45,281 nucleotides of DNA from Candidatus Methanoperedens sp. (GTDB taxonomy: Archaea > Halobacteriota > Methanosarcinia > Methanosarcinales > Methanoperedenaceae): assembly GCA_023249105.1 (NCBI GenBank), contig JAHFDG010000029.1, positions 1-45,281 of the forward strand, given 5' to 3'. A model generated the notes under the pieces. The model had not been told where the DNA came from and did no database searches. It saw only the letters and a program-made list of their open reading frames with translations. The position numbers and the translations under genes were made by a program. Within the stretch, counting starts at the first letter, position 1, and the number at the start of each line of letters is the position of its first letter. Positions 29,501 to 44,160 of the stretch are shown here, piece after piece.

Positions 29501-30900
29501 TAACGGGGATTGGTTTATTCATTCCGGTGGGTTTTATTTTGTTTCAATCCCTCTAAGGGCTGATTTTAACAAGGAGATTTTGTCGGCAAATATGCCGTGC
29601 TTCTTGGTTTCAATCCCTCTAAGGGCTGATTTTAACTGCGCATTCAGTTCACCTTCGGATCCATGAGCTCATGTTTCAATCCCTCTAAGGGCTGATTTTA
29701 ACTATTCCTGCCCTTCTTTCCTGAGTTTGATGGGTCGAGTTTCAATCCCTCTAAGGGCTGATTTTAACCATACAAAGATTATCTCGCAGGGTATATATAT
29801 TTGAGTTTCAATCCCTCTAAGGGCTGATTTTAACCAATGAAATGTATATCCCGCTGCTTAAAAATATCATACGTTTCAATCCCTCTAAGGGCTGATTTTA
29901 ACAAATTGACCTGGTAATTGTCAATCGAATAGATCGCCGTTTCAATCCCTCTAAGGGCTGATTTTAACCTGTTAGGAGTGATTTTCATGTGTCGACACTT
30001 TCTGCGTTTCAATCCCTCTAAGGGCTGATTTTAACAAGATAGTAGATTTCCTAGTGGAGAAAAAGACGCCCGTTTCAATCCCTCTAAGGGCTGATTTTAA
30101 CCCGTTGCTGTCAAAATAAGGGCTGTTCTTGATGTAGTGTTTCAATCCCTCTAAGGGCTGATTTTAACGCATACATATATACGTTTTGGTACGATAGTAC
30201 AAACAAGTTTCAATCCCTCTAAGGGCTGATTTTAACCTGATGCTCTATGCCGGCGTCGTCTATGACCTTCGTCGTTTCAATCCCTCTAAGGGCTGATTTT
30301 AACTGTAACAACAGGCGAGGCAATCATGAGAACCGTCATGTTTCAATCCCTCTAAGGGCTGATTTTAACCGCTAACTGCATCGAGCTAAGGACCTTCTCA
30401 AAAGCAGTTTCAATCCCTCTAAGGGCTGATTTTAACGAAAGACATACATACATCGGTATCACATGTAAAAATGTTTCAATCCCTCTAAGGGCTGATTTTA
30501 ACGCGGAGTTAGGATATTCCGTGGGAGACGTCATTAAGGTTTCAATCCCTCTAAGGGCTGATTTTAACCTTTGGTGGGATGGCAGCGGTAGGCGGGTTCT
30601 TCGCAGTTTCAATCCCTCTAAGGGCTGATTTTAACATATGAGGGCGGGGTAACATACTCAACAACATACGACGTTTCAATCCCTCTAAGGGCTGATTTTA
30701 ACATTTAAACGAAGGCTGACATAACTAAACTGTCTGTTGTTTCAATCCCTCTAAGGGCTGATTTTAACGAAAGACATACATACATCGGTATCACATGTAA
30801 AAATGTTTCAATCCCTCTAAGGGCTGATTTTAACTTAACTTTCAAATATTAGAACAGGAGGCTCAAAAATGTTTCAATCCCTCTAAGGGCTGATTTTAAC
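26563..30900 (-). CRISPR. CRISPR array, 66 repeats of 30 bp, 65 spacers
   Basis: I counted 66 repeat starts. On the plus strand each repeat reads GTTTCAATCCCTCTAAGGG and ends GATTTTAAC. Spacers are 35-37 bp, so the period is about 66 bp. In the minus sense the repeat starts GTTAAAATCAGCCC and ends with the ATTGAAAC handle typical of crRNA, so transcription is leftward and the leader lies at 30901-31095. The five distal repeats (26563, 26628, 26694, 26760, 26826) all have A instead of G at their plus-strand first base, as expected for an old distal end; the rest appear invariant. Spacers at 30437-30472 and 30769-30804 are identical. The cas genes next to it indicate type I-B. Confidence 0.99.
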
Positions 30901-33056: not shown

Positions 33057-33236
33057 AAATTTTTATAAACACTTATCAATAATTTTCCGGCGCTTCTGTG
33101 GAAAACGAAACCGCAGATGAACACGGATGAACGCAGATTGGATGCATGGGATTATTTTGCGCTCGTCCGCCTCTTTATGCCGCGGCGCCGTCCGGGATAT
33201 GCGAGGGGCGCAGAGTCTGCAAAGGCTGCGCGGCGG
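33057..33236 (+). repeat. 180-bp direct repeat, copy 1 (left of TA module)
   Basis: It runs from AAATTTTTATAAAC through TTTTCCGGCGCTTCTG, AACGAAACCGCAGATGAAC, GGATGCATGGGATTAT and CCGCGGCGCCGTCCGGGA to GGCTGCGCGGCG. Copies 2 and 3 lie right of the toxin-antitoxin pair in the same orientation. Several long open frames here are artefacts of high GC. Confidence 0.85.
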
Positions 33237-34150: not shown

Positions 34151-34338
34151 AAAATTTTTTATAAATATATATAAATAAATTTCTGGCGCTGCTACGGAAA
34201 ACGGAACCGCAGATTAACGCGGATGAACGCAGATTTATTGCATCGGATTATATCGCGCTCATCCGCCTCTTTTTACCGCGGCGCCGTCCGGGAGATGGGT
34301 GGAGGCGCAGAGTACACGAAGATACGGCTGCGCGGCGG
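34151..34338 (+). repeat. 180-bp direct repeat, copy 2 (right of TA module)
   Basis: It has the same order of words as copy 1: AAAATTTTTTATAAATA, TTTCTGGCGCTGCTACGG, AACGGAACCGCAGATTAACG, TTGCATCGGATTATATCGCG, CCGCGGCGCCGTCCGGGAG, then GGCTGCGCGGCGG. Confidence 0.85.
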
Positions 34339-34400: not shown

Positions 34401-34580
34401 GTAAAATTTTATAAATAACAATCAATAAATTTCCGGCGCTTCTGCGAAAAACGAAACCGCAGATGAACGCGGATGGACACAGATTAGATGCATCGGATTA
34501 TATCGCACTCACCGCCTCTTTTTACCGCGGCGCCGTCCGAGAGATGCGGGGGGCGCAGAGTCCGCAAAGGCGGCGCAGTG
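34401..34580 (+). repeat. 180-bp direct repeat, copy 3
   Basis: It follows copy 2 after 62 bp, with GTAAAATTTTATAAATAAC, TTTCCGGCGCTTCTGCG, AACGAAACCGCAGATGAACG, CATCGGATTATATCGCAC, CCGCGGCGCCGTCCGAGAG and CCGCAAAGGCGGCGCAG. No gene is seen between 34103 and 34695. Confidence 0.85.
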
Positions 34581-34695: not shown

Positions 34696-37362
34696 TCAAA
34701 TAATAATGCCAAGTGATAAATTATCCATTTCTTCTTTAAATTTATCTGATTTTATGCCATCTATGAAATTATAACATTCTGAGAACTTTTGCGTAGATAA
34801 TATGATGTTGAATTTATCATCTCGCTCAATAAACCCTTCAGCTTCCAGATAATCGGAAAGGTTTGTTTTTTCATTTTTTAAGTTAGTTATTGTAATAATA
34901 AATTGGTTAAACAGGCTAGTAATTTTCCGTCTAATATAAACATCTTCAAATTTATTTGTGGATTCCATGATTTGTTTCCAGACAATATATACATTTTTTG
35001 TGAAGATTACCTCTCCAGATATAATCTTTTGAATCCCCTCAAATTTCATTATGATTGGATCAACGATAATGGATTCAATCTTATTTTTATCATATTCAGA
35101 CAAATATTTAAGTGGAATTTCATCACAAACGAAAATATCTATTTGATCCACTCTTTGGTCTATTACATTAAGTTTATCGTTTATTGTCTTAAAGTGTAAA
35201 TCTCCTATTTCACGACTAATAAGAGGAAAATTATCTCGTGCAATTTTTTTTAAATTTTTTGACAAAACATTATAATATTTATTGAATTTTTTATATGTTA
35301 AAATTTCTTCTATATCTTTTTGATTAAAATCAATATTTTGGATTTTATATCTATCATAAGAGCGATATATTTTCTCACTGTCTGATAAACTTCCATCTTT
35401 GTACATTATGATGAATAGTTTCGAAATATTTGATTTTTTTGCATTACATTCTCTATTAATTCTTCCAGATATCTGTTCTATGCTGTCTAATATTGAATAA
35501 TCCCTTACTCCAAAATCACAATCAATATCGACACCAGCTTCAATCGATTGAGTTGAAACAATTATTATTCTTTCTTTTTTTGATTTATCTTTTATTTCTT
35601 CAATTATTTTCTTTCTTCTTAAGCTCGATATGGTGCTATTTAATAAATAAATGGAATAATTCTTGAAATCACAATCCGATTTAATTTTATTATATACCTT
35701 TCTTGAAGTAGATATTGTATTAAATGTCAAAAGAATTTTAACTTCTCCAGATTGGTAATTCTCATCAATTTCTTTCATCAAAAGGTTTTTAATTCCATTC
35801 ATATCACTGATATCTTTTTTGAAAATAATAGTATTTCTTTTGAATAGAGCATGACTAAAATATTTTTCAGGTGAGTCAATAATTTGTGGAACTTTAACAT
35901 CGTCTAGAAAATCATTGATATCTGGAAGAGTAGCACTCATAATAATATAATAAATATTCAAATTTCTGCTGGTTTCCTTAATAAAATCATAAAACACTCT
36001 AAAATTTTTATCACTTAATGTCTGTATCTCATCAACAATAACTATGCTGTTACATAGGTTTGCAATCTTATACCGATTATTTCCTCCATTTTTAATAATA
36101 CCGTTGAAAAAATTCACATTTGTTATAACATTTACACAATTATTTAAAAAATTATCATCCCTAATTACCATCATTTTCTTTAAATTAGGTATTGAATCTC
36201 TATTTTCCACACCTTGGAACTTATTTACATATGCTCTTGAGTATATATCTGAAAGAAGACCCGTTTTATTATATGTAAATAGAGTTTTGTCAAATAATGC
36301 TTTATCGATTGCTTCATAGTTCTGTTCAATTATATTGATATATGGAAAAACATAAAATAGTCTTTTCACGCTCATATCATGCTCAAGAATATCCAGCGCC
36401 AGTTTCATGGAAATATTTGTTTTTCCGCCACCAGTTGGAACAGATAGCATAAATATTTTTTCATTTCCTTTAAGGAGTTTAGTTATGTTATTGCTGCATT
36501 CAATCAATATCTCTCGTCGTAAAGCATTTATGTCTTTGCATTGTGAAATATCTCTTTGCTCACTATAATTAATATTTTTATTATAAGGTATTTGTAAATA
36601 TGATTTTCTCATCTTCTCACGAATAACATCATCAATAATATTTAAAGGATACATGGCATCAAATGAATAGGTGAAATGCATTGTTGAATAGGAATCACTA
36701 AGAACAAGCAGTGAATATAGGAGCTTGACGAGTAAGAATATCTTTGGCCATTCAACATTATTTGAAAAGAAATCTTTTTTGAAATCTTCTGTTAGTATCT
36801 TCTCCTCGATATTCGTTAATTGAAAAATCTGATTGATTATTTCTATTTGTTCATTATCATAGAATTGATTTATTGTAGTAAAATCAGCTAATTTTCCATG
36901 ATGATTTCGAACAATATTTTCCATCAAATAAATTCCATCAACTGACTCATTAAATTTTTTTTGAAGAAAAGCACTTAGAACTCTTTCTGAAAAAAAACTA
37001 TGTTCAGTGTTACCCGAAAATGATTGTCCTTTTACTTTCTTTTTTTGAAATTTCGGATTCATTTTTCCGATATCATGGTAATAAATTGCATACGAAAGAA
37101 TTTGTTTGTTTTCATTTAGACATTTTTCTCCAAAAACGGCAGAAATCAGTTTGTCAGGTATTGGTTCAAGTCCTAATTTATCCACAATATGCAAGAAGTA
37201 ATTACTACAAAGCTCTGAGTGGTCTTCTAATAATTCAAAATCATTCTCTTTTCTATGAGCAGAATAGAATATATTTCGTGGTATTAGGCTTTTATCTAAA
37301 GTTTGAAAAATATCCTTAAAAGTATTAGAATATATAGTAGTAGTCATTATTTCTTGTGACAA
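34696..37362 (-). CDS. cas3: Cas3, HD nuclease-helicase of type I-B
   Basis: This 888-residue protein cuts and unwinds target DNA recruited by Cascade. The HD domain has H48, H96-D97 (YYHDIGK), H121 and H154-H155 (RNHHGK). The helicase has Walker A PTGGGKT at 309-315, the DEIQ box at 444-447, SATLP and the C-terminal motif with QISGRINRE. The start is TTG 37362 with AGGT 7 nt upstream; ATG 37347 is an alternative. Either overlaps the end of cas5. The gene is very AT-rich, like cas5, cas7 and cas8. Confidence 0.95.
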   Translation of the reverse strand: MSQEIMTTTIYSNTFKDIFQTLDKSLIPRNIFYSAHRKENDFELLEDHSELCSNYFLHIVDKLGLEPIPDKLISAVFGEKCLNENKQILSYAIYYHDIGKMNPKFQKKKVKGQSFSGNTEHSFFSERVLSAFLQKKFNESVDGIYLMENIVRNHHGKLADFTTINQFYDNEQIEIINQIFQLTNIEEKILTEDFKKDFFSNNVEWPKIFLLVKLLYSLLVLSDSYSTMHFTYSFDAMYPLNIIDDVIREKMRKSYLQIPYNKNINYSEQRDISQCKDINALRREILIECSNNITKLLKGNEKIFMLSVPTGGGKTNISMKLALDILEHDMSVKRLFYVFPYINIIEQNYEAIDKALFDKTLFTYNKTGLLSDIYSRAYVNKFQGVENRDSIPNLKKMMVIRDDNFLNNCVNVITNVNFFNGIIKNGGNNRYKIANLCNSIVIVDEIQTLSDKNFRVFYDFIKETSRNLNIYYIIMSATLPDINDFLDDVKVPQIIDSPEKYFSHALFKRNTIIFKKDISDMNGIKNLLMKEIDENYQSGEVKILLTFNTISTSRKVYNKIKSDCDFKNYSIYLLNSTISSLRRKKIIEEIKDKSKKERIIIVSTQSIEAGVDIDCDFGVRDYSILDSIEQISGRINRECNAKKSNISKLFIIMYKDGSLSDSEKIYRSYDRYKIQNIDFNQKDIEEILTYKKFNKYYNVLSKNLKKIARDNFPLISREIGDLHFKTINDKLNVIDQRVDQIDIFVCDEIPLKYLSEYDKNKIESIIVDPIIMKFEGIQKIISGEVIFTKNVYIVWKQIMESTNKFEDVYIRRKITSLFNQFIITITNLKNEKTNLSDYLEAEGFIERDDKFNIILSTQKFSECYNFIDGIKSDKFKEEMDNLSLGIII

Positions 37363-38035
37363 TTAAATTACCTGGATTCTTAAATGATATAACACATTCT
37401 TTTTGGGGAATTGCCATTAATCGATAAATATATTTGAAATTTTCATTGAAGTCTATTGGCAGCATTTCCAATTTCATGTTATTAACTCTGTTATCTTTAA
37501 ATTCATCAAATGGAAATATACTAGAGCACTTTACTTCTTCCAGCAAATTTATTTCATAGTCTTCCAAGGAAATATATTGGATGTTTGCAAAAAATTCATT
37601 TTTTCCTAAATATATAGGGAAAAAACTTTTATTATTCTTAATATATTCAATTATTCTATTATGTATAATGTTGTTTTCGTTCAGCAATATACCAATCTCA
37701 TAGTTTGGCTCCAGCAATATCTGTTCATTAATTATTACATTGGGCGGACCTGCATCAATGCGGTTATTCAAGTAACTGTTCATGCTATTATAGATTACAA
37801 CAAACTTTTTATCATGATAATTATTGGATTTTATATATACTTTTACATCTTTGAGTGTACGATAAAATTCAGGCTCTAATTCATTATTCTTATTTCCCCC
37901 AAGGCCAGCAATTGAACCGATAAGTCCTAGCAATTGAGGTTTTGGAATGATTGAATATGTATTCCTAAAGCGATTGCTAATAGGCTGATTAAAATGGGCA
38001 AAATCCCCAAATAATTTAAATTTTAGGAGTTTCAT
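37325..38035 (-). CDS. cas5: Cas5, Cascade subunit (Cas5b type)
   Basis: This is a 236-residue RAMP-like protein. The N-terminus KLLKFKLFGDFAHFNQPISN and the following SIIPKPQLLGLIGSIAGLGG match the Cas5 family, which binds the 5' handle of crRNA. The gene overlaps the start of cas3 and lies 52 bp after cas7. It lacks a Cas6 role here, since a separate cas6 is present. Confidence 0.93.
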   Translation of the reverse strand: MKLLKFKLFGDFAHFNQPISNRFRNTYSIIPKPQLLGLIGSIAGLGGNKNNELEPEFYRTLKDVKVYIKSNNYHDKKFVVIYNSMNSYLNNRIDAGPPNVIINEQILLEPNYEIGILLNENNIIHNRIIEYIKNNKSFFPIYLGKNEFFANIQYISLEDYEINLLEEVKCSSIFPFDEFKDNRVNNMKLEMLPIDFNENFKYIYRLMAIPQKECVISFKNPGNLIVTRNNDYYYIF

Positions 38036-38087: not shown

Positions 38088-38957
38088 TCACGGTTTTATA
38101 TTATTTTCAAGTATAATATTCTTGACTTTGTTGCTATATTCTTCAAGTGAAGTTTTATCGATATCAGCATTAACCAATTTCATGACTTTAGAGTAATTAA
38201 TAACTATTTCATCATTTAAGTCGTAAATCTCAACAAGTGAATTTAAATTGTTAAATATTTTATCTTGTTCGTTCTTAAACCATAGCATACTTACAGTTTC
38301 ACAGCCAAACATTGTGGTAGAATTTACCCATCCCACAGCATATTTCATCGCTTTCTTTAATTTCTCAATATCTTCATCTTTTATTTTGATACCTTGTTTC
38401 TCTGCAGAGTTCATGTTTAGACAAACATCGTATACATAATAAACATCATCTGCTCTGGATTCTTCTCCTATTGTTGTCTGTTGAGCATCTTTACTTTTCT
38501 CATTTGAATTACGGTAAGGAGATAATATATTTGAAGAAAAGATACTGGATTTATTATATCTATTAACTCCATAATTTATTTGACACGGCCCAGTTAAAGA
38601 TATATTACTATCAACGGCAAATACGATTCCAAATAATCGAACATCTATGAATTTTAAAAGATCTTCAAGAATGACTTTTTCATCTTTAGGAAGTTCTTTT
38701 TTATTACATTTCTTTAGATAATTTTCTCTTAATGTGAGATATCGTTGCGTTACAGCTCCCTTTTCATCCGTATGAAATTCTTTAGATCTATGAACGAAGA
38801 TTGGTTCTTCCTTTGAGAGATATTCCCTTATGCAATATTTTAATGCTTTATCAGTTGCAAAAATTTTTCCAGTAGGTAATCTCCGTGGAAGTCCATCAAA
38901 ACCCGCATTGAAATTCGCATTTTTTGCATTCACAACAACTATTCCGTTATAATTCAT
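38088..38957 (-). CDS. cas7: Cas7, Cascade backbone (Csh2 type)
   Basis: This 289-residue protein forms the crRNA-coating backbone. It starts NYNGIVVVNAKNANFNAGFD, then LPRRLPTGKIFATDKALKYC, and continues with DVRLFGIVFAVD, SLTGPCQINYGVNR and the DVCLNM region, all typical of Csh2/DevR-family Cas7. It lies one base after cas8, so expression is coupled. Confidence 0.95.
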   Translation of the reverse strand: MNYNGIVVVNAKNANFNAGFDGLPRRLPTGKIFATDKALKYCIREYLSKEEPIFVHRSKEFHTDEKGAVTQRYLTLRENYLKKCNKKELPKDEKVILEDLLKFIDVRLFGIVFAVDSNISLTGPCQINYGVNRYNKSSIFSSNILSPYRNSNEKSKDAQQTTIGEESRADDVYYVYDVCLNMNSAEKQGIKIKDEDIEKLKKAMKYAVGWVNSTTMFGCETVSMLWFKNEQDKIFNNLNSLVEIYDLNDEIVINYSKVMKLVNADIDKTSLEEYSNKVKNIILENNIKP

Positions 38958-38958
38958 T

Positions 38959-40890
38959 TTATTCCTCCTCTTGTTGTTTAAATTCTAATTCTTCCTTTTC
39001 CTTCTTTGAAACATACAAATGATTATTGTCAAAATAACCAGTGTACATCGGTATTTTATTGTCCTCATAATTTTTCGTGAATTCAAATGCTAAAACATTG
39101 CTAATGAGTGAACGAAAACCACGGTTATTATCAATATATTCATTATGAGAATACTTTTCTAGCACCGCAATCAATTTCTGTTTTAAACCATCCATGTTAT
39201 GAACATTCATAGTATATTTGGTGAATAAGCTAAACCTATTTTCAGTTTTGCTAACCTGCAACAGATAATAAAATATCTGTCCCATCGAATAGCTTGCTTC
39301 AAAATCATTTTCCAGTTTGATATTTTCCAAGTCCTGTATTTTTTCTTTCAGTCTAAGATATTCCGTAATAATACCGCCTCCATTTGGTTCTAAATTCAGA
39401 TATTTGAAATAAATAGTTAAGAAAAATCGCATTTTATTATTTCCAATTTTCATCTGGTCGCGAAGATTTTGATTATCAACAAGTTCTGATAAAATCTCTA
39501 TAAAGAGTTTCGTAAAAATTTTATCCTCAAACAAAGAAGCATCTTGAAAATATATATAATTTCTAATAATTGAATTATATTCGATAATTTTTAATTTTAG
39601 GAATGGATGAAGAGACTTGATCAAATTCTTGGAATCAGTTTCAAATAAGGACGGGATAAGTGCATTGTTGAAGAGCAGATTTAATTCCATTGAAAATGTG
39701 ATTTTATCTCTATCATTTTGAATCAAAATTATTTCCTCATCTTTACCTTTGGAATCAAGTTCTTTTAATTTGGAACTTATCGGGATGTCTCGAACGTTTA
39801 CTTTAGGATTTTCATTTGGAAGATTGTAATTGAAGTTATTAACATATCTAAAATCTATATCTTCAATTTTCGGATCAGTCATCATCATTACATAATCGAA
39901 CTCATTAAAACGATTTCTATGATAGAGACCTTTTAACATTTTCAAGATGCCAAGCGGTTTAGAAGAGTAATCTTGATAATCAGTCTTGTCCACTGAAACA
40001 GTAGGAAATACATACCTATAAAATTTATTCTTTTTGATATATTCAAAAAAATTATAAATATTCTTGGCACATTTGCTACATATATTAAAATTTTCGGGGC
40101 TATCTGATTTCAAATTTGTTTTGTATCTTGTAGGATGTCTGAAAAGAAACTTCCGAGCTTTTTCTAAATCAAACATATTCCCCTGAGTTAACATATATAG
40201 CTGCTCAACCGCACCACAATTATCACAATTCCCTTTAAATGTTGGATATTTAAGAATTTTTGTATTGATATAATTATCAACAGCATCTAAATAATTATTA
40301 ATTTCTGATTCATTTACAAGAAAAACCACATAATCATTTTTTTGTAATCCAAATTTATTTTCTGGATTTATAAGGTCGAAATCCTTGAAAAAATTTGCTA
40401 CTTTATCAGAAAGCCAAGGAAATTTATTGAAATATTCAGTATTTTTAAAGGATGTTTTAAAAGCATCAACTTTTTTTTGAGGAAATTCTATAAATAAATT
40501 TTCATTGGGATATTTCTTGTCTTTATTAATAAACGTGTCAAAGATTTTAAAGTGAGCAGGAGAATGACTCATCAATGCAGCGTTTGATCCAATATTATTT
40601 GAATTATTATGAGTAGGATTTACGAATTTACTGCAATTGAAATAAGCAAGTAATTCCCTTTTTTTTTGTGAATATGTGGAAAATAGTGGATTTTCATTGA
40701 TTTCTTCTAACAAGTTTTTATTCTTTATTAGAAATGGTGAATCTAATATTTCTGGAGGAACAACCAAAATATTTGTATCTTTGGTTTTTGAATTCTCGCT
40801 ACTTTCCTCTAACAATTCGCTGTAATCATCTTCGGAAAACAAATTTACAATAAAGTTGTACAGACTATTCACCTCTATTGTTTTTTTCAA
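38959..40890 (-). CDS. cas8b: Cas8b, large Cascade subunit with a zinc finger
   Basis: This 643-residue protein is the large subunit that recognises the PAM and recruits Cas3. Sequence similarity in this family is weak, and the call rests on size, position and the four-cysteine site C222/C225 (NCDNCGAVEQ) and C271/C274 (CSKCAKN), which is usual for Cas8b/Csh1 proteins. The start may be TTG 40890 or GTG 40872. Either overlaps the end of the upstream Cys-rich gene. It ends one base before cas7. Confidence 0.88.
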   Translation of the reverse strand: MKKTIEVNSLYNFIVNLFSEDDYSELLEESSENSKTKDTNILVVPPEILDSPFLIKNKNLLEEINENPLFSTYSQKKRELLAYFNCSKFVNPTHNNSNNIGSNAALMSHSPAHFKIFDTFINKDKKYPNENLFIEFPQKKVDAFKTSFKNTEYFNKFPWLSDKVANFFKDFDLINPENKFGLQKNDYVVFLVNESEINNYLDAVDNYINTKILKYPTFKGNCDNCGAVEQLYMLTQGNMFDLEKARKFLFRHPTRYKTNLKSDSPENFNICSKCAKNIYNFFEYIKKNKFYRYVFPTVSVDKTDYQDYSSKPLGILKMLKGLYHRNRFNEFDYVMMMTDPKIEDIDFRYVNNFNYNLPNENPKVNVRDIPISSKLKELDSKGKDEEIILIQNDRDKITFSMELNLLFNNALIPSLFETDSKNLIKSLHPFLKLKIIEYNSIIRNYIYFQDASLFEDKIFTKLFIEILSELVDNQNLRDQMKIGNNKMRFFLTIYFKYLNLEPNGGGIITEYLRLKEKIQDLENIKLENDFEASYSMGQIFYYLLQVSKTENRFSLFTKYTMNVHNMDGLKQKLIAVLEKYSHNEYIDNNRGFRSLISNVLAFEFTKNYEDNKIPMYTGYFDNNHLYVSKKEKEELEFKQQEEE

Positions 40891-41323
40891 CTACCCTCAT
40901 CTTCTTCGCCTCCCGTGAAACCTCCTCCAACTGATCCAGCATCTCCGGCGGCATCTCCAGGCTTATCATCAGGAGCAGCATCGAAACCGCGCCCCGGTTG
41001 TAGAACTCCTTCGCGAGGGTTTCATGATCAAAATGTTCAATGCCTATTTCATGCACCTGTTCCCATGCATCATCAAAGGCAAGATACTGCATTTCCTTCG
41101 CGACCTTCTCACATCGTGGAATATGCTTCGCAATGTCCTGGGGTGTCATCTTCAGTTCTTCAGGAGAATAGCCCTTTTCCAGTAATTCCATACACCTGTC
41201 ACAGGTCAGCATGTCATTTTTGGGCTTCGGGTCAGGGCAGTCCATATCTATGCCGCAAATGGAGCAGGGAACGTTCACCATCCGGCTATTCTTTGCCTTT
41301 CCACCTCGTTTCTCCGCCTTCAT
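40865..41323 (-). CDS. Cys-rich protein at the head of the cas operon, unknown
   Basis: This 152-residue protein has not been recognised as a known Cas family. Residues 15-45 hold two CxxC pairs (PCSICGIDMDCPDPKP and LTCDRCMELLEK), which suggest a zinc ribbon. The rest is helical and acidic, with a C-terminal amphipathic segment (MISLEMPPEMLDQLEEVSRE). ATG 41323 begins a lysine-rich tail; ATG 41281 (MVNVPCSICG) is a shorter alternative. It overlaps cas8b by up to 26 bp, so it is translated with the interference genes. It could be a regulator or an accessory subunit. A TATA-like GTTTAATAATCC lies 20-30 bp upstream. Confidence 0.7.
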   Translation of the reverse strand: MKAEKRGGKAKNSRMVNVPCSICGIDMDCPDPKPKNDMLTCDRCMELLEKGYSPEELKMTPQDIAKHIPRCEKVAKEMQYLAFDDAWEQVHEIGIEHFDHETLAKEFYNRGAVSMLLLMISLEMPPEMLDQLEEVSREAKKMRVVEKNNRGE

Positions 41324-41442
41324 AGATTCTTTACATAATCTCCGGGATTATTAAACCTTTTGAAAGCGGGGTGAAACTAATTTTTTATCGCAAACATTAC
41401 GATAGTCAAGTTTTTAAACCAGTTCAATCAAAAGGGAATCAG

Positions 41443-41814
41443 ATGGCAGAACTCACAGTCAGGAAAATAATCGAAATCCATGACGAGATCATAAAAAAAT
41501 ATAGCGGGACAAATGGGGTATTAAGTGAAGCTACACTGGAAATGCTCGTCTATAAAGTGAATCGTGAGCATGATGTGTTAAAACAGTCATCTATGGTTCT
41601 GCACATAATAACGTCCCAACATCCGTTTTTTGATGGAAACAAAAGAACAGCCCTGGTGACGGCAGAAAAAATGCTTTACGATAAAGGATATTACATTCAT
41701 GCAGAAGCTGAAGAAAAAGTTGATTTGATGATAAAAATAGCAGAATACAAATGTTCGGTAAAAACAATAGAAAAATGGGTCAAAGAAACAATCAGAGAAC
41801 TACATCCGGGCTAA
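41443..41814 (+). CDS. Fic/Doc-family protein
   Basis: From ATG 41443 this is a 123-residue protein. A longer frame begins at 41371, but TTTTTAAA at 41411-41418 places a likely promoter inside it. The Fic/Doc active site HPFFDGNKRTA (about residues 56-66) is intact. Doc-type toxins transfer a phosphate or nucleotide onto targets such as EF-Tu. The gene is opposite in direction to cas6 and the cas operon and lies between them. No clear antitoxin with the inhibitory S/TxxxE/D motif is seen, though a small minus-strand frame overlaps its end. Confidence 0.82.
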   Translation: MAELTVRKIIEIHDEIIKKYSGTNGVLSEATLEMLVYKVNREHDVLKQSSMVLHIITSQHPFFDGNKRTALVTAEKMLYDKGYYIHAEAEEKVDLMIKIAEYKCSVKTIEKWVKETIRELHPG

Positions 41815-41973: not shown

Positions 41974-42095
41974 TATTTCGCAAACTCAATAGATTTGTTT
42001 CATGCCCCCTCTGCCTTCCCTATCCTCTTCTTCGCTCCCCTATCGCCTCCTCCAGATCATCCAATGGCGGCGGCATCCCCGGCTTATCATAAATC

Positions 42096-42824
42096 TTACG
42101 GGAATATAACGTCAACACACCCGAACCCCATTGCATTCTTCTCCCCAAGACCAGCGTCATAAGCAAACTTCAAAAGTTCAGGACTTGCCTGGAGATGCAT
42201 ACTGAATAAGCTACAGCGCCTGTAGCCGTCAGCGACCCTGATCCGTTTGGGTTTCATGTCCTTTATCTCTAATATGTCAAAATGATCCTGCGGAGCTTTA
42301 TCATAGAATTCACTAAAACGCTCGATCAGGTTTTTATGAAGATTTTCGTAGAACTTCGGATCTTTCGGGTAAAGATCGACCTCTCTAAGACCCTCATTCT
42401 CCTTTCGCATCGTCTTTACATAAACCGGGGAAAGCGTCTTGAACCAGCACTCATCCCCAAAAGTTATTTCATTCAGTATTTCAATGCGCTCGATAACGAT
42501 ATCAACTTTCCCATCCGGCCCATCCAGGTAAAATCCCGGTTCCATGAGAAGCCCTTCTGCAAAACTTTTAATGAACCTGTCATCTGGAGATGATAGAATA
42601 AAATAAGCATTTTCAAAAAAGAGACCTGATTTGCTGAATTTTCTATTCAGTAAAACAAGATTTGAAAAAGTATAGAATTTAAATCCCTGGTGAGCATGCG
42701 TTTCGTTAGCCAGCCTGACGTCAGCTTCTGCAAGTTTAAAGTATAACATTGACGCCATGCCGTATTGATAATCGAAATTCACTGGACGGTTCGATATATT
42801 CCTGATCGTTATTTTGCTCCTCAA
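42096..42824 (-). CDS. cas6: Cas6, crRNA-processing endoribonuclease
   Basis: The protein has 242 residues with a TTG start; AGGAG lies 7 nt upstream. The ferredoxin-like fold ends with GLGEKNAMGFGCVDVIF, the glycine-rich loop of Cas6. HAHQGFKFYTFSNL near residues 43-56 and FILSSPDDRFIKSFAEGL are also typical. Cas6 cuts pre-crRNA in each repeat to leave the 8-nt ATTGAAAC handle. It is set apart from the other cas genes by the Fic gene and probably has its own promoter. Confidence 0.92.
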   Translation of the reverse strand: MRSKITIRNISNRPVNFDYQYGMASMLYFKLAEADVRLANETHAHQGFKFYTFSNLVLLNRKFSKSGLFFENAYFILSSPDDRFIKSFAEGLLMEPGFYLDGPDGKVDIVIERIEILNEITFGDECWFKTLSPVYVKTMRKENEGLREVDLYPKDPKFYENLHKNLIERFSEFYDKAPQDHFDILEIKDMKPKRIRVADGYRRCSLFSMHLQASPELLKFAYDAGLGEKNAMGFGCVDVIFP

Positions 42825-43729: not shown

Positions 43730-44160
43730 GCTGCAAGAACATGATGAATATGCGAACAGGAGCGGGTTTGCTGAAGGCGCCGTGCATGAATTATTACGAA
43801 TCCACCGCCAAAGCGCGCAGAGTCCGCGAAGTTCCGGCTGCGCGGCGTGGGATGGGCGGGGTCAGGGAAGCGCGTGCATGAGTAGCGGCGGGGTGAGCGT
43901 GAGGAGGCGCACGGGCTGGCGCAGGTGAAGCAGAGTTGAAGATCTGATAATAATTTAGACAGAGCGGCGCCTATATGTTACCGAAGCAGTCTCCTTCATA
44001 CATTGAATAAGAAACCGCAGATAAACGCAGATGAACGCAGATAACGTAAAGCGGCGCTTGTGTGCTGAGAGGCGGCGCCGTGCCGCTGGCGCGCATGGGG
44101 GTGCGGGGCGCGGGTACGTGGGGCGGAAGTGGGGTTAAATGTGAAGACGCTGGACTTCGA
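43730..44160. repeat. GC-rich repeat block without a gene
   Basis: It holds a partial relative of the 180-bp repeat at 43770-43900 (GCGCGCAGAGTCCGCGAAGT, then CGGCTGCGCGGCG). A GGCGCCTATATGTTACCGAA copy lies at 43964-44010, followed by AACCGCAGATAAACGCAGAT at 44012-44031. Apparent open frames here come from high GC. Confidence 0.7.

Follow-up and report, generated by a model that had tools for sequence, protein, structure and literature searches.

The small gene that heads the CRISPR effector genes in this DNA, called X here (ORF 40865-41323, minus strand), is best explained as a leader cistron confined to its genus and serving type I CRISPR effector operons. It would place the effector genes under a regulator shared with DNA repair, pass ribosomes on to them by re-initiation, mark with its 3' end a place of module exchange, and encode an accessory zinc-ribbon protein. 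We give this reading a probability of about 55%. In the proposed mechanism, a regulator common to DNA-repair genes would read a promoter box, causing X and the effector operon to be transcribed along with the repair genes. Transcription would begin at this repair-type promoter just upstream of X, X would be translated before the other genes, and ribosomes finishing X would start again at cas8 or cas10d. Exchange of effector modules would have the 3' end of X as one of its sites, and the X product would be an accessory protein of the zinc-ribbon type that the complex probably does not need. The window, meaning the whole stretch of DNA that was analyzed, comprises 45,281 nucleotides of a Candidatus Methanoperedens genome and contains the following features.

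34696..37362, minus strand: cas3 (PADLOC Cas3b, E 2.8e-282)
37325..38035, minus strand: cas5 (NCBIfam Cas5h, E 2.9e-25)
38088..38957, minus strand: cas7 (Pfam PF05107, E 2.4e-34)
38959..40872, minus strand: cas8b, a divergent large subunit, standing first among the effector genes behind X (PADLOC Cas8b, E 7.9e-16)
40865..40872, minus strand: overlap GTGAATAG, the likely cas8b start within the end of X (sequence; same start in the L024 homologue)
40865..41323, minus strand: gene X, a 152-aa Cys-rich (zinc-ribbon-like) leader cistron (ORF with ATG start; genus homologues; dN/dS)
41347..41355, minus strand: TATA-like element TTTAATAAT after the box, TTTATAATC in relatives (upstream alignment; read directly from the sequence)
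41363..41378, minus strand: promoter box AGTTTCACCCCGCTTT, 55 nt before the X ATG (0 mismatches; the sole match in the window at <=2 mismatches)
41371..41814, plus strand: Fic/Doc-type toxin gene between cas6 and X (TIGR01550 DOC_P1, E 5.1e-18; the true start is probably downstream of the listed GTG)
42041..42082, minus strand: possible 3'-end remnant of an older X copy, beside cas6 (15-residue tblastn match, 87% identity, E 0.004 among the gaps compared)
42096..42824, minus strand: cas6, the constant upstream neighbor of X in the genus (PADLOC Cas6, E 9.1e-80)

The effector operon runs in the order X, cas8b, cas7, cas5, cas3, and in the window the Fic/Doc-type gene on the opposite strand parts X from cas6. 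The sequence-only reading had already noted that X is encoded with the complex and overlaps cas8b. X is indeed the first cistron of the operon, and the overlap amounts to 26 nt with the long ORF that starts at TTG, or to 8 nt with a GTG at 40872, which is the likelier start because the L024 homologue begins there. An X stop codon that overlaps or touches the effector start is also found at L018, L019, L020, L022, L026, L027, L068, and L069. By codon overlap or proximity, X and the effector gene behind it qualify as a pair of the translationally coupled type, and the overlap suggests re-initiation. For overlapping archaeal genes, ribosome re-initiation has been shown in general (PMC6728339). 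The large subunits behind X are very divergent: the window's Cas8b (38959-40872) matches one PADLOC model only, and a 924-aa gene of a type I-D set (L026 1792-4566) matched no model.

That X is a real gene and no accidental ORF follows from its dN/dS, which lies between 0.25 and 0.54 over 21 homologue pairs. Intact copies are under moderate purifying selection; cas6 gives 0.07-0.12 at the three closest loci (the window, L018, and L019), the values from L020 and L023 (cas6 out of frame) and from L026 (saturated) being discarded. The two CxxC pairs pointed out in the earlier reading are present as C20xxC23 and C41xxC44, together with C29, and an alignment shows C20, C23, C29, C41, and C44 to be invariant across seven long homologues. 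With two conserved CxxC knuckles, the protein appears to be zinc-ribbon-like. Its N-terminus is positively charged, and the remainder is mostly helical and charged, in line with the helical body proposed earlier. In an AlphaFold model built from two sequences, the Cys region forms two short strands and helices come after it, but the pLDDT is 56, which is too low to rely on and makes the model unusable for comparison with the Cas11 fold. Searches of X, as a single sequence and as an alignment, against Pfam, NCBIfam, PADLOC, PHROGs, and PDB sequences returned nothing above noise; PADLOC gave no match at all, and the Pfam and NCBIfam matches were noise below the cut-offs. The earlier view that X fits no Cas family therefore agrees with the profile searches. 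X most likely encodes a zinc-ribbon accessory protein whose binding partner is nucleic acid or a Cas protein.

Homologues of X occur in 9 of the 31 Ca. Methanoperedens genomes, one of the carriers being Candidatus Methanoperedenaceae archaeon FeB_1; all genomes compared are drafts. Among 393 genomes of the phylum there was no convincing relative, as the weak matches (E 0.003-0.008) cover only part of the protein, and none was found in the viral contigs searched. X thus appears restricted to the genus. The sequence-only reading would have been contradicted by a housekeeping family living without cas genes; what emerged was a single orphan copy, at L021. This copy (L021 9366-9794) is full length, has a related promoter and no cas genes, and separates pcc1 from the next gene of a conserved cluster; the 204-aa gene on its other side is known from that genome only.

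Next to cas genes, X keeps its place while the effectors behind it change. The window's kind of cas6 is present at 14 loci in 12 genomes of the genus, and X or a remnant lies just downstream of it at 13 of them, the pieces at L067 and L068 being the weakest and recognized mainly by reading the sequence. At the lone exception, cas6 is broken and no other cas genes were recognized within the 18 kb fetched. Effectors of the Cst1 kind follow X at L018, L022, and L068, with a remote Cst1 kind at L067. Another Cas8b kind follows at L019, L020, and L023, and a further one at L027. A type I-D set (Csc2 and Csc1, behind the 924-aa gene) follows at L026, and L069 was assigned to I-D by similarity. L028 has a shortened X without cas6, then Cas3, a weak Cas8a match, and a DevR/Csa2-like Cas7. 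The earlier reading had suggested asking whether X accompanies cas8b in other I-B loci. X fronts several I-B sets and a I-D set that are unrelated to one another, and this synteny rules out a cas8b-specific partner.

These junctions point to exchange of modules. Between the window and L024, cas8b is 88.6% identical although the X copies come from separate lineages. L068 and L069 have one mini-X region in common yet carry a I-B and a I-D effector set, respectively. Modules have therefore been exchanged where X meets the effector genes. X also moves apart from cas6, since L026 and L020 share X at 81% identity but cas6 at only 69%. X appears to mark a point at which modules of unlike subtypes are swapped while cas6 stays. 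Remnants of X 3' ends stronger than the window's lie beside cas6 at L019, L022, L023, and L025. They look like traces of earlier exchanges, and positions 42041-42082 of the window are perhaps another. Two further features recur in this region. Toxin-type genes are repeatedly found between cas6 and X (window 41371-41814, L022 8303-8728, L023 8976-10615, L025 6645-7738, and the gap at L067); they are Fic/Doc genes, with the L022 homologue at a position matching the window, or paired small ORFs resembling a nucleotidyltransferase and a HEPN protein, the latter judged by eye. Intergenic repeats with CCGCAGATGAACGCGGATGAACGCAGAT (window 33057-33206, 34153-34302, 34403-34552, and 44005-44042) flank the cas operon and recur at several related loci, and they may help exchange.

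X itself often decays. It is intact at six cas6 loci and shortened at others: to 118 aa without the ribbon at L022, and to 75 aa at L027, 53 at L028, 51 at L068, 49 at L069, and 37 at L067. At L024 it is frameshifted, possibly by an error in a draft genome. The effector genes beside the shortened or frameshifted copies are all open, and because the body of X is so often deleted while they stay open, X is dispensable for the complex. The truncated copies at L022, L027, L068, and L069 have nevertheless kept a stop that falls at or within the effector start codon. Four of five changes are in frame (L022, L027, L028, and L068/L069 as one event), with L024 out of frame; chance gives about 5% for this bias, which is suggestive and only marginally non-random.

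The promoter of X suggests a link between the operon and DNA repair. The upstream regions of X align as one promoter, A[C/G]TTTCACnCCGCTnT followed by TTTATA. The box stands 53-55 nt before the ATG with <=2 mismatches at 10 of 13 cas-linked X loci, a level that shuffled X upstream regions reach in 0-1 of 1000 cases; L023, L068, and L069 have no box at X. When TATA is left out of the pattern, the window's genome has 11 matches to the box at <=1 mismatch vs 2 for a reversed control. A stricter pattern that includes TATA gave 20 sites in the 31 genomes of the genus and none for its reversed control, and the reversed control pattern had zero matches across 150 genomes. Those 20 sites precede X loci, replication factor A, RadA, and, in one case, a cas8b operon. 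Sites in the genus with few mismatches that were fetched include 23 before replication factor A and 21 before RadA, with single or few cases before a Mre11-like phosphoesterase, Bro-N genes, DUF763, and others. Other genera of the order again have the box before RadA and replication factor A, and also before RecQ and Hef. It holds a fixed place before TATA and, apart from the CRISPR operons, stands mainly before repair genes; the X promoter accordingly falls in a repair-type group. Four cas8b operons of the genus that lack X also carry the box, but there it stands some 200 nt ahead of the annotated cas8b start, a greater distance than at X. As the X promoters are homologous and were counted as one event, independent support for the link between box and CRISPR comes from the X family and from these operons without X.

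This distribution suggests, short of proof, that CRISPR effectors are co-regulated with DNA repair. Joint expression is plausible because Haloferax Cas3 (type I-B) has been linked to homologous recombination repair with Mre11-Rad50 (PMC10117719); that link is a genetic phenotype, whereas the one here is a promoter element in common. In Halobacterium, the UV-B-induced genes radA1, top6B, vng17, and vng280 share the promoter box TTTCACTTTCA; Methanospirillum radA is reported to have a box like it (PMC2556686). The Halobacterium box resembles ours in its TTTCAC core and in lying upstream of a TATA box, some 50 nt ahead of the radA ATG. However, the likeness is limited to this core and position: the box here reads TTTCACnCCGCTnT and also precedes replication factor A, recQ, hef, and CRISPR effector operons. 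The two boxes could be read by related regulators, and by analogy the Methanoperedens box may confer induction by DNA damage. An earlier report of the box in Methanosarcinales may exist beyond the open-access literature. In its widest form, which we hold tentatively and at somewhat below even odds, the Methanoperedens effector operons would be members, alongside RadA, replication factor A, RecQ, and Hef, of a DNA-damage regulon in archaea, and a dedicated zinc-ribbon leader that evolved within the genus would carry the promoter and dock swapped effector modules of different subtypes. Control of CRISPR effector genes in archaea is known for few species, and whether Cas proteins are tied to DNA repair is a long-standing question that has been reopened; a box common to radA, rpa, and CRISPR effector operons makes it simply testable.

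Some genes behind the repair-type box fall outside these groups. Bro-N genes carry it at L205, L217, and L218 and could be mobile-element genes using the host's repair promoter. A DUF763 gene (a family of unknown function; L210 114-1211) stands behind the same box and may be repair-linked. The X promoter was also considered as a CRISPR-repeat-like CreA guide. CreTA RNA guards beside cas6 or cas8 (PMC8501985, PMC9458426) likewise fill the intergenic space by cas6, but they are RNAs with degenerate repeats, whereas X is a protein gene. Upstream of X there is a single repeat-like match, above chance in few loci only, and we set this candidate aside since the repair box explains the region better.

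Position and promoter could also mean that X is a zinc-ribbon transcription factor that binds its own promoter and autoregulates the cas operon, like Csa3 of Sulfolobus (PMC4333418, PMC7480081). A first place in the operon, the Cys ribbon, the positively charged N-terminus, and the conserved promoter would all suit such a role, and Csa3 regulators are likewise small genes beside cas genes. However, Csa3 combines a CARF domain with a MarR-like winged helix, and X is zinc-ribbon-like and lacks such a match. X cannot be the general reader of the box, because the box precedes radA and rpa in genomes without X as well, and the shortened copies at L022, L027, L028, and L067 keep the box with the ribbon partly or wholly gone. 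We consider autoregulation unlikely. Equally improbable to us is a structural role, with X assisting the interference complex or Cas6 as, for instance, a protein akin to a small subunit or one that handles crRNA. Direct encoding with the complex, the helical prediction, and the close link to cas6 speak for it, and Cas11 small subunits are also short helical products of type I effector operons. Nevertheless, X resembles no PADLOC Cas11 or Csa5 model, is common to several I-B kinds and I-D, and is cut to 49-118 aa beside the same effector sets. The small subunit proposed in the sequence-only reading is unsupported on the same grounds, as X leads several subtypes and its body, including the zinc ribbon, is lost where effector genes are open; nothing was found in support of the anti-CRISPR sensor that it also named.

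Slightly less credible still is the view that X plays no part in immunity and travels with effector modules as a small gene of selfish or addiction type, or as a passenger undergoing decay. What fits this view is that only 9 of 31 genomes have X, in a patchy pattern, that it often decays and leaves tandem remnants, that toxin-type genes occupy the same gap, and that an orphan copy lies beside pcc1. Against this, X holds the same position, promoter, and junction in front of effectors that are unrelated, and it is under purifying selection. The leader cistron remains our preferred explanation.

One further observation concerns the CRISPR array of the window, where two identical repeat-spacer units lie at 30407-30502 and 30739-30834, so that the same spacer appears twice, 332 bases apart.
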